Position numbers and translations under genes: made by a program. Under the pieces are notes generated by a model. It was not told the origin of the DNA, ran no database searches, and saw only the letters and a list, made by a program, of their open reading frames with translations. Of a stretch of DNA of 64,000 nucleotides, positions 566 through 7,022 are shown in pieces. The stretch covers positions 1-64,000 of the forward strand of contig CALUWJ010000003.1 in assembly GCA_944324455.1 (NCBI GenBank), read 5' to 3'. Numbering within the stretch: position 1 is the stretch's first letter; each line of letters opens with the position of its first letter. Source of the DNA: Candidatus Gastranaerophilales bacterium. GTDB taxonomy: Bacteria > Cyanobacteriota > Vampirovibrionia > Gastranaerophilales > Gastranaerophilaceae.

Positions 566-581
566 TTGGGCTTGCGCCCAA
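566..581 (-). terminator. GC hairpin just after the prepilin-like gene
   Basis: TTGGGC (566-571) pairs with GCCCAA (576-581). On the coding strand of the minus gene the loop is GCAA. It starts 10 bp past the stop codon and has no clear T-run, so it is a weak intrinsic terminator at best. In diversity-generating retroelements a short GC-rich hairpin follows the variable repeat, and this may be one. Confidence 0.45.
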
Positions 582-591
582 GTTATATATT

Positions 592-2049
592 TTACAACTT
601 CGTGACACAGCGCACCGAAAAAGCGCCCGTACGGGAATGGCCATTCTGAATCCAACTACCCCTATTCAAGTAGTAATAGTAGGCGTAGGATAAACCGTTA
701 ACAGTACCACTCCACACGCTGTTCGGGTAGCAACTGTCATTGTACGACCCTGGGCAAAAGTACGAATAGTTACAATATGCGGACGAGTAACCCGACGAGT
801 ATTCGCAAAGCTGCAAGCCATTAACCCCTAATCCTTTTGAATTTGCACCCCAATTAGACATTTCAGATGTTGTAGCTAATCTCCAAGTTCTACCCCCAGC
901 AGTAAAATTTTTACAAATATAATCAGCAGCATACCAATCACATACTGTTCTATCGCAACCACTATATGCTCCGCCACCATCATTATTACAACTAGTGCCT
1001 GATGTAGTCCCCCTCCAGCAGCATTTATTTGAGCCGCTTGAGTTACATGTTTGGCCTGTGTTTGCTACAGTAACCCCGCTTGGAATGGGTAGAGTTGAAC
1101 TATCCCCCATGTTTTTTCTTGTTACACAAAGTGACCCTATTTGCATAAAATCAGAACCGGAGCAAGAAAAATCAGCAACGCAAGTTGAACCAGAAAGATG
1201 ATAACCATTAGCGCAAGTTGTACATTTTGTAGAATTACATGCCGTACAACTTGAACCAAATTTAGCACTGCAAGTTGTGCAACTGCCATTGCTTAAAATA
1301 TAATTACCGGAGCATGCGCTACATGCTGTTGCTGTACATGTTGAACAATTTGAAAATAAGCTGGAGCAACTCTGACATGTTCCATTTTTAACTGCATACC
1401 CACTGGTGCAAGTAGTACATGCGCTAGCTGTACAATTAGTGCAAGCTAAACCAAAAATTTTTGTACAATTTGCAATACAATCATTACCAACTAAATCATA
1501 ATTAGGTTTACAAGTCATACACTTTGTTTCATCACAACTTGTACAATTTGCATTAAAAAATTTAGTACAATCTGGAACACATTTTCCATTATCTAACTTG
1601 TAATTTGTTTCACATGTTTTACATTCATTTTTATCGCATTTTGTACAATGTTCAAATTTTGATTTACAATCTACACAATTACTATTATCAAGATAGCTTC
1701 CATCTAAACAATTTTCACATTTATCACTCTCGCATTTTGTACAATTACTTCCAAATTTATCAGTACATGGCAAACATTTACATGATGGAGTATCTTTGTA
1801 CTGTCCATCTATTGTGCAATCAAGATTACACATAACGCATTCATCTCTAAAACATAATTTGCAATCAGGTGATATATCTTTGCACTCATCACTCCAACCG
1901 TTAGAACCGCTACTTCCACCAAAAACACCACTTGAAAACTTCTTTGTGATAATTGGAGTAAATGCTGCTGTGATACAACTAATTACAATTAAAGATATGA
2001 GCAGCTCAATTAAAGAGAATGCTCTCTTGAAACGTGTTTTGATAATCAT
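592..2049 (-). CDS. Type IV prepilin-like protein with cysteine-rich repeats and candidate variable C-terminal domain
   Basis: The protein has 485 residues. The N-terminus is a class III signal: basic MIIKTRFKRA, cleavage before FSLIE (Glu at +5), then a hydrophobic helix to about residue 35. Residues of about 50-290 hold one divergent and six clear repeats of about 32 residues of the type CTKC-x4-C-x2-C, resembling furin/growth-factor-receptor cysteine repeats. The last 190 residues form a separate domain containing TWRLATTSEMSNW and ending FSVRCV, similar in style to C-type-lectin/FISUMP-like domains. Its last 240 bp are 48% G+C and rich in Tyr, Ser and Asn. The probable role is a surface-exposed minor pilin or pseudopilin adhesin. 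The ligand is unknown. Confidence 0.85.
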   Translation of the reverse strand: MIIKTRFKRAFSLIELLISLIVISCITAAFTPIITKKFSSGVFGGSSGSNGWSDECKDISPDCKLCFRDECVMCNLDCTIDGQYKDTPSCKCLPCTDKFGSNCTKCESDKCENCLDGSYLDNSNCVDCKSKFEHCTKCDKNECKTCETNYKLDNGKCVPDCTKFFNANCTSCDETKCMTCKPNYDLVGNDCIANCTKIFGLACTNCTASACTTCTSGYAVKNGTCQSCSSLFSNCSTCTATACSACSGNYILSNGSCTTCSAKFGSSCTACNSTKCTTCANGYHLSGSTCVADFSCSGSDFMQIGSLCVTRKNMGDSSTLPIPSGVTVANTGQTCNSSGSNKCCWRGTTSGTSCNNDGGGAYSGCDRTVCDWYAADYICKNFTAGGRTWRLATTSEMSNWGANSKGLGVNGLQLCEYSSGYSSAYCNYSYFCPGSYNDSCYPNSVWSGTVNGLSYAYYYYLNRGSWIQNGHSRTGAFSVRCVTKL

Positions 2050-2149: not shown

Positions 2150-2431
2150 ATGGATGATGATATTAAATTAATTAATCAAAAGAAAAAAATTCTTCTAAAA
2201 GCAATAGGGGAAATTGTTTTAGAAGAAAGAACCAAACTTAAAAAAGGGATAAATAAATTTTCTTTTGAATATGACATAGGTAACGGATTGTTATCAAGAT
2301 TAGAACACGGGTCAACTGATGCAAAAATAACAACCCTTTGGAAAATAGCGAATGCTTTTAATATTAGTTTTTCACAATTTGCTCTTAAAATAGAAAATAA
2401 GCTTCCAAAAGATTTTAATTTTTATGAATAA
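2150..2431 (+). CDS. XRE-family helix-turn-helix regulator
   Basis: A 93-residue cytosolic protein that is almost entirely one HTH_XRE domain: the segment from KFSFEYDIGNGLLSRLEHG through ITTLWKIANAFNISFSQF matches the recognition-helix and fourth-helix pattern (LSRLEHG, L-x-KIANAF). It lacks a second domain. It is divergent from the prepilin-like gene and may control it, itself or both through the inverted repeat at 2101-2118. There is no Shine-Dalgarno, and a -10 box 6 nt before the ATG suggests a leaderless message. Its stop codon abuts a terminator. Confidence 0.8.
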   Translation: MDDDIKLINQKKKILLKAIGEIVLEERTKLKKGINKFSFEYDIGNGLLSRLEHGSTDAKITTLWKIANAFNISFSQFALKIENKLPKDFNFYE

Positions 2432-4143: not shown

Positions 4144-4240
4144 TTTTGTGCTCTTGTTTCCCCAAAGTTAATAAAGTCTAATATACTGTTTATTTTCTAA
4201 AAAGCAGATTATTATGTCATCATCTAAATAATTGAATGAG

Positions 4241-4651
4241 TTATTGCGCAGTTTCAAGGTTTTTATTTATCATTTTTTTAGATTTATCAACATTTTTCAT
4301 TTTTTTGTTAATTGCTTTTATTTCTTTTTTTAGAGCTTTACAATTTGCTTCCACTCTTTGCTTTTCGTTTAATGCTTCATTGTATTTAGATGTGACTACA
4401 GCAAGTTCCTGTCTTAATTCAACCTGTGCATCATCAAGATTAATTAGGGCATTATTAAATTTTTGCTCTTTTAAAGTGGTTGCCCTGTATGTTGAATTAA
4501 CGCTTGTTGAGCTTGTTGTTTTTGTGGTATTTACAGCAGGTTGAAGTTTAACTTCAGTTGCTTTATCCATTGAATCAAAAACCGTATCCATAGCATAGGT
4601 TGCTTGAAAAGTCATAAATATAACAAATGTATAAAATAATATTTTTTTCAT
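4241..4651 (-). CDS. Exported coiled-coil protein of unknown function
   Basis: 136 residues. Residues 1-20 form a signal peptide (MKKILFYTFVIFMTFQATYA). A Thr/Ser-rich linker follows, and residues of about 58-136 are predicted coiled coil (ALINLDDAQVELRQELAVV, KQRVEANCKALKKEIKAINK). There is one cysteine and no lipobox. I recognise no family. A periplasmic location is inferred. A Shine-Dalgarno (GGAG) precedes the start. It is followed on the same strand by the sigma factor after 97 bp. Confidence 0.7.
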   Translation of the reverse strand: MKKILFYTFVIFMTFQATYAMDTVFDSMDKATEVKLQPAVNTTKTTSSTSVNSTYRATTLKEQKFNNALINLDDAQVELRQELAVVTSKYNEALNEKQRVEANCKALKKEIKAINKKMKNVDKSKKMINKNLETAQ

Positions 4652-4742
4652 AGCCGCTCCGTAACTAATTCATATCTATAATTCTATTTTACTAACGGAA
4701 AAGATAAGGGTCAATTTAAAATGAAATAATTACACTTTTTAT

Positions 4743-4776
4743 TTGATTTAATTTTATAAAAGAATATAATTAAGCT
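4743..4776 (+). promoter_or_regulatory. Promoter of the ZIP transporter, leaderless type
   Basis: TTGATT (4743-4748), 16 bp, TATAAT (4765-4770), 6 nt, then ATG. No Shine-Dalgarno is present. Confidence 0.65.
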
Positions 4777-5616
4777 ATGAATAAATCATATTTAATGGCA
4801 TTATTATTATCAACATTCGCCGGTCTTTCAACGGTAATCGGCGGTTTTGTTACTTTTTTTATTAAGGAAAATTCGCTAAAATTTTTATCTTTCGGCTTAG
4901 GTTTATCCGCAGGGGTGATGCTTTTTGTCTCTCTGGTTGATTTATATCCCAACGCATGTGAAATGTTAAAAAACCAAATGGGTGAAAATTTTGTATGGCT
5001 TGCAATAATATTTTTTGCACTTGGAATATTAATAGCGGTTTTAATTGACTTTTTTATCCCTGACCATATTCAAGGACAAATGTTCACAAAACAAATTGGC
5101 GCAAATGAAAAAAAGATAGATAGTGCTGACTGTGAAAAAGATGAAAATGCAATAATTTCAATAGGAAAAATAAAAAAAGCAGGTATTCTTACGGCTATTG
5201 TTGTTGCGATACATAATTTGCCTGAAGGCTTAGCTACTTTTTTCCTAACAACACAAGATGTTATGCTTGGGCTTGGAATTGTTTTTGCTATTGCAATTCA
5301 TAATATCCCAGAAGGAATGGCAATTTCAATACCTGTATATCAAGCAACGCATTCTAAAAGAAAAGCATTTTGGTATTCATTTTTATCGGGTATGGCAGAG
5401 CCGGTTGGTGGTGTTATCGGATTTATAGTAATTAAAACCTTGTTCCCCAATCTCTGTATTGGAGTCTTATTTGCTCTTGTTGCAGGAATTATGACCTATA
5501 TTTCAATAGATACATTATTGCCCTTATCAAAAGATTACGACACGGGTCACTATTCAATAAGCGGAGTGGTTTTTGGTCTTATTATTATGGGTATAACATT
5601 AATATTATTAGATTAA
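4777..5616 (+). CDS. zupT: ZIP-family divalent metal transporter (ZupT-like)
   Basis: Inner-membrane uptake of zinc or other divalent metals. The 279 residues carry about eight hydrophobic segments. The two metal-site signatures of the family are present, HNLPEGLATFF in TM4 and HNIPEGMAIS in TM5, as is the glycine-rich SGMAEPVGGVIGF. The gene has its own promoter with the -10 box 6 nt from the ATG. Its stop codon overlaps the stop of the convergent radical SAM gene (shared TTAA at 5613-5616). Metal specificity cannot be read from the sequence. Confidence 0.93.
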   Translation: MNKSYLMALLLSTFAGLSTVIGGFVTFFIKENSLKFLSFGLGLSAGVMLFVSLVDLYPNACEMLKNQMGENFVWLAIIFFALGILIAVLIDFFIPDHIQGQMFTKQIGANEKKIDSADCEKDENAIISIGKIKKAGILTAIVVAIHNLPEGLATFFLTTQDVMLGLGIVFAIAIHNIPEGMAISIPVYQATHSKRKAFWYSFLSGMAEPVGGVIGFIVIKTLFPNLCIGVLFALVAGIMTYISIDTLLPLSKDYDTGHYSISGVVFGLIIMGITLILLD

Positions 5617-7022
5617 TATTTTTTAACCAATCTAATAAAAGTATCATAGTATGATTTAAATTTTGTAATTGAATTGATGGAACAAGCCATTTTTAAAATG
5701 TATCTTGGTCTTAGATAATATTCTTTATTAAATTTTTTATTATACTCATAAATTTCATCAGCTGATAGCGTGTATGATTTTACGCTTGGGAAATAATACG
5801 GTTTTTCATAATTTATTTCACCAAGTCGATTTTTTATTGCATAATCATAAAACTTTGTACCTTGAAGCGCAGCAGCTGTATAAAAACTAGCAAATTCAGT
5901 ATTAAGTTCTTTAGCTAATTTATAAGTTTGTTCTATTGTTTCTTTTGTTTCCCAAGGTAAACCTAAAACATAATAAGCATAAATTTGAATTTTATATTTT
6001 TTAATTAAAGATACTGCATTTTTAATTTGCTCAAGAGTAATTTTTTTACCCATTTTATCAAGAATTTCTTGAGAAGCACTTTCTATACCCATTGATAACA
6101 AATTACAACCTGCTTTTTTTAACAATGCAAGCGTTTGTTCATTTAGAGTATCGACTCTTGTGTTTGCACTAAAATTAATTTTTAGATTGTTTTCAATAAT
6201 CATTCTGCATAATCTTTGCACCCAAAGACTGTCTTGATTAAATATATCAGACCAAAATATAAAATCTCTTATGTTGTATTTTTCAATACATTCTTTTATT
6301 TCATCTATAACTAAATCAACACTTCTATATCTGACTTTTTTACCGTTTAGAGGAGTTGCAAGACAGAAAAAACAATGATTAGGGCAGCCCTTTGAAACCC
6401 TGATTATTGTTTGTGGTTTTTTAGTGTCAGGGCGAGTATAGAAATTATTATCAATTAAATCTCTATCTAAAAAGGGTAAGTAGTCTAGATTTTTGGATAA
6501 TTCTCTATCGGGAGTGGATGTAATTTTATTATTTATTTGATAAGTTATCCCTTTAATATCTTTAAAATCGTTGTATTGAATAATTTCTTCAAAAGCGGGT
6601 TCAATCTCCCCTCTTAGAGCAATATCAATTTCGGGGTATTGTTGCATTATTGAATAAGAATTAAAATTAAAAATAGCCCCTTTAACGATTACAACAGTAT
6701 CTTCTAAAAGGTCTCTTGCTTGAGTTAAAATTGATAAATCTTCTTCAAGAAATGTTGAAGCAACATTTACAACCAAAAAATCCGGCTTAAAGACTCTAAT
6801 ATCTCTTAAAAAATCATAGACATTTTCATTTTTTAAACTGTAATCTTTAAACTTTGTTTCATAACCATATTTTTTTGCAATAGCAGATAAGCTCATCATA
6901 TCAACAGGAGGCAGGGGTGGAATTATTAATAAATCTCCTGTCGGTTGCTGACATCTGTCTTCTCTGTTCATAATTGGAGAAGGAGGATATATAAAAAATA
7001 TTTTTTGCTTTTTATTTGCCAT
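5613..7022 (-). CDS. B12-binding-domain radical SAM protein
   Basis: 469 residues. The N-terminal part (about 1-150) is a cobalamin-binding-like Rossmann region (FIYPPSP, MMSLSAIAKKYGYE). The radical SAM core follows, with the 4Fe-4S cluster motif CPNHCFFC at about residues 213-220 and GIESASQEILDKMGK. This architecture (BchE/HpnJ-like) performs methylations or ring rearrangements on tetrapyrroles, lipids, antibiotics or hopanoids, and the substrate here is unknown. Its ATG overlaps the stop of the upstream SDR gene (TAATG), so the two are translationally coupled and probably act in one pathway. Confidence 0.88.
   Translation of the reverse strand: MANKKQKIFFIYPPSPIMNREDRCQQPTGDLLIIPPLPPVDMMSLSAIAKKYGYETKFKDYSLKNENVYDFLRDIRVFKPDFLVVNVASTFLEEDLSILTQARDLLEDTVVIVKGAIFNFNSYSIMQQYPEIDIALRGEIEPAFEEIIQYNDFKDIKGITYQINNKITSTPDRELSKNLDYLPFLDRDLIDNNFYTRPDTKKPQTIIRVSKGCPNHCFFCLATPLNGKKVRYRSVDLVIDEIKECIEKYNIRDFIFWSDIFNQDSLWVQRLCRMIIENNLKINFSANTRVDTLNEQTLALLKKAGCNLLSMGIESASQEILDKMGKKITLEQIKNAVSLIKKYKIQIYAYYVLGLPWETKETIEQTYKLAKELNTEFASFYTAAALQGTKFYDYAIKNRLGEINYEKPYYFPSVKSYTLSADEIYEYNKKFNKEYYLRPRYILKMACSINSITKFKSYYDTFIRLVKKY

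Follow-up and report, generated by a model that had tools for sequence, protein, structure and literature searches.

The window, the whole stretch of 64,000 nucleotides analyzed here, opens contig C3 of a 1.76-Mb genome (40 contigs, 99.4% complete) of a Candidatus Gastranaerophilales bacterium. A gene on its minus strand (592-2049) encodes a prepilin-like, cysteine-rich protein of 485 amino acids, recognized by profile matches, with a lectin-type domain at the C-terminus, and is the apparent target of a diversity-generating retroelement (DGR). The protein begins with a class III signal and pilin helix (1960-2049, minus strand; RA-FSLIELLISLIV, with Glu at +5), whose cleavage site was read from the sequence. 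This is followed by a Cys-rich repeat stalk (1174-1959, minus strand), seen in the translation and with homologous repeats in about 15 paralogues, and by an Lcl_C-like domain of the C-type-lectin fold (595-1173, minus strand), which was assigned from the family profile, a structure model, and Foldseek.

The match of the protein to TIGR02532 (16.8 bits) is above the cut-off of 16.3, that to N_methyl (21.1 bits) is a tenth of a bit below the cut-off of 21.2, and the Lcl_C match (E 1.1e-5) is below the cut-off of that profile. The class III signal is intact, with both the Glu+5 and the hydrophobic helix, and PF00437, the type II/IV assembly ATPase family, which was the assembly family checked, is present in the genome. 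Judging from these sequence features, the protein is likely to sit on a pilus, where the tip position put forward in the earlier note would be one possibility. A small HTH_3 protein encoded at 2150-2431 (plus strand), divergent from the pilin gene, is a possible regulator of this gene.

When modeled with 74 relatives, the domain at 595-1173 reached a pLDDT of 94.2, an earlier model from 11 sequences (pLDDT 50) having been discarded, and Lcl_C matches were obtained for 62 of the 74 members of the family. A sequence search of the domain against the PDB returned nothing useful. Foldseek matched the model to the C-terminal domains of Bd2740 and Lcl and to snake C-type lectins, with modest E-values (best 2.7e-3) and with top matches that agree on a single fold. 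The predicted structure is a C-type-lectin fold, and the domain occupies the C-terminus of the window protein, which is consistent with the lectin-like variable domain proposed in an earlier note on this DNA. The nearest solved folds are the C-terminal domains of Legionella Lcl (8q4e) and Bdellovibrio Bd2740 (8oks), which have only about 10-13% identity to this domain, at modest E-values, and are not, to our knowledge, DGR targets.

The earlier note had been drawn to this gene by the composition of its 3' end, and the values bear it out. The G+C content of the final 240 bp is 47.9%, against values down to 25-29% in the 240-bp windows of the middle of the gene, and one stretch of 45 codons contains exactly 12 tyrosines (nine TAC and three TAT), while the part of the gene preceding the variable repeat has eight TAT and two TAC. 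The repeat that had been placed in 592-1000 is real, although smaller in extent, given that homology to a template is limited to 605-810 (minus strand). This 206-nt segment, the partner of template TR2 on contig C12, is almost certainly a DGR variable repeat (VR), as indicated by the template homology and by differences directed to adenines. The run of TAC codons reflects the template, given that eight of the 12 tyrosines of the window VR stand at its AAY codons. The alignment also reveals an adenine-free 3' end (605-618, minus strand; TCGGTGCGCTGTGT), common to the templates, which is likely to act as an IMH-like anchor. A genome search with the window region recovered about ten further copies elsewhere, with identities of 70-89%. 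Given these copies and the adenine-directed differences, the repeat greatly exceeds what chance would produce.

The template and the DGR-type reverse transcriptase (RT) expected outside the window, the lack of which in the genome had been named as the contrary result, are both found in the same genome, on contig C12, together with an Avd gene. This locus (L033, minus strand) starts at the contig end with a VR 3' end, followed by Avd (5792-6193), the RT (4633-5778), and, downstream of the RT, the two template repeats, TR1 (about 4540-4264) and TR2 (about 4106-3827). The RT has the motifs IGNLTSQ and YVDD, and matches RVT_1 (E 1e-13) and phrog_1423 (E 9e-96); its closest solved relative is 8ub7, a BPP-1 RT, and several of the closest RTs come from Candidatus Gastranaerophilales MAGs. 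It is the only convincing reverse transcriptase of the genome, and adjoins some of the copies recovered with the window region. Avd matches bAvd (E 8.6e-11), NF033474 (E 6.7e-13), and the entry annotated as 'Avd protein of DGR' (E 2e-19), with a score above the Pfam bAvd cut-off and below that of NF033474. A scan of the cassette for Rfam families found none.

TR1 (within L033:4199-4560, minus strand) stands in tandem with TR2, from which its 3' half differs at many bases, and was rejected as the source of the VR 3' halves because none of the VRs found in this genome matches it there. The template repeats lie within short open reading frames (L033:3816-4106 and 4199-4540; L131:2860-3225; L132:2726-3034) that agree in frame with the VR, and in three genomes these reading frames carry in-frame leaders that resemble one another, such as MKKYKENELMILVQDNK.

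The differences between the VRs and the template fall, as predicted, at template adenines. In the window VR, 16 of the 55 adenines of TR2 are changed, in comparison with seven of the 151 other bases (Fisher p=5.8e-6). When nine VRs are pooled, changes affect 181 of 460 adenine cells, 11 of 371 C, 19 of 402 G, and 20 of 472 T, that is, 39% of the adenine cells versus 3-5% of the cells of each other base. Template adenines were replaced by G 115 times, by T 76 times, and by C 33 times, for the most part at the first and second codon positions. Variation reaches all 18 AAY codons of TR2, each with at least four residue types, a level reached by only five of the other codons. As a control, the domain's upstream half, which has diverged between genes to the same degree (pairwise 0.19 vs 0.20), has no adenine bias.

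Nine complete and two partial VRs were found in the genome, the former on C3 (the window), C8, C9 (two), C15, C17 (two), and C20 (two), and the latter on C21 and C12. At least ten VRs are spread over seven or eight prepilin-like, Cys-rich genes on separate contigs, an assignment that covers the target genes whose 5' ends are present in the assembly. Two lectin domains are found per reading frame on C9, C15, C17, and C20, and some paralogues carry the VR internally rather than at the C-terminus. Internal and terminal VRs are similar in their rates of change at adenines (42% vs 39%) and at other bases (6.0% vs 5.8%). The second domain on C15 and the gene at C8:23.2k were rejected as VRs, given the lack of adenine bias. 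The end of the C21 VR (L039 start) and the start of the C12 VR (L033 end) overlap by 60 nt, with eight differences, all at template adenines. These fragments may come from two separate loci or from a single one at which the sampled population was mixed for VR versions, and their differences are no more than suggestive of active mutagenic retrohoming.

A GC-rich hairpin with a GRNA loop after the VR is a feature of some DGRs only, rather than a universal one. The hairpin noticed beyond the gene does exist, with the structure TTGGGC-GCAA-GCCCAA at 566-581 (minus strand), beginning 10 bases after the stop codon. Of 200 shuffled sequences, no more than four fold as well. Its value as evidence of a DGR was nevertheless lost, given that genome copies identify it as part of a dispersed repeat (roughly 430-599 in the window; L016-L024), which follows unrelated genes and pilin genes that lack a VR, often near contig ends, and is missing after the internal VRs and after the cassette VRs of genomes G000, G017, and G020. 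It was rejected as a DGR element on these grounds, and the repeat could represent a terminator or a mobile repeat. The DGR hairpins of Guo et al. have stems of 7-10 bp and GRNA loops (PMC3240598), whereas that of the window has a 6-bp stem and a GCAA loop.

Among the genomes of the genus, an RT of the same kind is present in seven of 28, including that of the window, with a patchy distribution. The order of the cassette is the same in G017 and G020, which have three and about ten template-like VRs, respectively. About 99 copies of the lectin domain are found in the 1.8-Mb genome of G010, in reading frames of up to about 1000 amino acids (L220 and L130, for example), although these were not accepted as some 99 VRs, given that only a handful are near the G010 template and that the distant copies sampled have no adenine bias. 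In genome G014, the VR-like lectin domains number about 17-22, and a single reading frame may hold as many as four (L191-L196; its contigs C52, C1, C27, C33, C12, and C32), and 17 aligned copies contain 43 hypervariable columns, 34 with all four bases, a DGR-like pattern, but neither a convincing RT nor a separate template copy was found in this 97% complete assembly. The adhesin family is also present in G022, where its divergence is more diffuse, and it is large in G022, G014, and G019, in which a DGR RT was not detected. The simplest reading would be that of an old, expanded adhesin family, of which a subset was brought under DGR control in some species. Other reverse transcriptases occur in related genomes, at G034:C7:84242-85063 (L136, L092, L093), where the match is in two separate pieces with 38-41% identity, G018:C10:830-1462 (L221), and G002:C37:1520-2053 (L222). 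A phage origin of the DGR was rejected, given that no relative was found in IMG/VR and that phage RTs are at most 41% identical among the best matches listed; a search for the VR domain in phages did not find it.

Overall, the window VR is very probably the product of a chromosomal, trans-acting DGR that diversifies prepilin-like lectin domains. By analogy with known DGRs, an RT-Avd complex would reverse-transcribe the template RNA with errors at adenines, and the cDNA would replace the VR, with the adenine-free 3' end serving as the anchor. The 18 AAY codons of the template would become randomized residues in the C-type-lectin domain of a protein with a type IV pilin-like, Cys-rich stalk, which would, in turn, be exported, assembled into a pilus, and bind ligands. 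The same DGR would have written at least ten VRs in seven or eight paralogues, which would provide the cell with a set of diversified adhesins. Ordinary divergence of paralogues or gene conversion, acting in a family of repeated adhesins whose binding residues are selected for variety, with no mutagenic retrohoming, would fit the large families in genomes where no DGR RT was detected, but this is very improbable, since it predicts neither an adenine-rich, non-genic template beside the RT and Avd, nor the excess of change at template adenines, nor the unbiased upstream half of the same domain.

It is somewhat probable that the window VR is still being rewritten today. This is less sure because it retains seven non-adenine mismatches, while the cassette-side fragments have none (0/124 in C21 and 0/65 in C12), which would agree with a VR written by the DGR in the past and now fixed, so that only the cassette-side target is still rewritten, as would the two diverged copies on C15 and C8, which are family domains without the pattern. 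Across all the VRs, however, 48 of the 80 non-adenine mismatches correspond to a base or an adenine present in another version of the template (TR1, G017, and G020), and many may thus reflect change in the template rather than age; the template-derived positions, moreover, remain similar across genes despite their diverged flanks, and fixation is possible but the less favored reading. The placement of the protein is also subject to doubt. The prepilin signal may serve a pseudopilin-like or membrane-anchored surface protein that bears the diversified lectin domain outside the pilus, given that these proteins, at 485-640 amino acids and with their long Cys-rich stalks, differ from major pilins and that the N_methyl match is borderline, but the intact signal, the assembly ATPases, and the type IV pilus genes reported in a Gastranaerophilales relative (PMC5877343) argue against this, a possible but less likely alternative. 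The broadest interpretation has about an even chance of being correct. It holds that one two-template cassette keeps rewriting, in trans, ten or more lectin domains on seven or eight prepilin stalks, including internal VRs and without a VR-specific hairpin, which would form a combinatorial surface-receptor system of non-photosynthetic gut cyanobacteria, built on an older adhesin family that is under DGR control in only some species.

These findings tie targeted hypermutation to a family of type IV pilin-like adhesins in the Gastranaerophilales, which are mostly uncultured gut bacteria, and by this means the cell could alter the binding faces of about ten lectin domains at its surface. No report of a DGR in the Melainabacteria or Gastranaerophilales was found in the openly searchable literature, which includes few subscription papers or preprints, nor was a class III prepilin family with so many separate VRs found in the searchable literature. 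Targets far from the RT are an arrangement that the metagenome survey of Roux et al. was, according to its authors, unable to detect (PMC8144416), and most of the targets described here are of this type. Given that species with and without a detectable DGR share the same adhesin family, the genus offers a natural comparison in which the benefit of diversification is testable.

The DGR of the Bordetella phage BPP-1 (Mtd, Avd, bRT, TR/VR) shares with the present system a homologous RT and Avd, adenine-directed change from TR to VR, and a C-type-lectin target, although the DGR described here is chromosomal rather than phage-borne, with the templates after the RT and many unlinked VRs, and has no VR-specific hairpin, whereas BPP-1 requires one with a stem of 8-10 bp (PMC3240598). 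The DGRs of Thiohalocapsa PB-PSB1 are also cellular; their targets lie at a distance, are apparently diversified in trans, and include proteins with tandem VR-bearing CLec domains, but these targets are NTPase or vWA conflict-system sensors, rather than prepilin-like Cys-rich proteins (PMC10907252). Tip pilins of type V are diversified by DGRs in Bacteroides (Macadangdang et al. 2024, as cited in PMC12632263), another case of gut bacteria diversifying a pilus-type adhesin, although the targets, as presented in the citing paper, are type V lipoprotein pilins, unrelated to the class III prepilins found here. The DUF1566 (Lcl_C) targets belong to the same domain family and include putative pilins, and both pilin-like links and DGRs that combine two TRs with six VRs are on record (PMC6642488), although the present host group and a genome-wide prepilin family are not described there. 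Taken singly, then, trans-acting DGRs, multiple VRs, tandem lectin domains, and targets of the pilus type are already known (PMC10907252, PMC6642488, PMC12632263).
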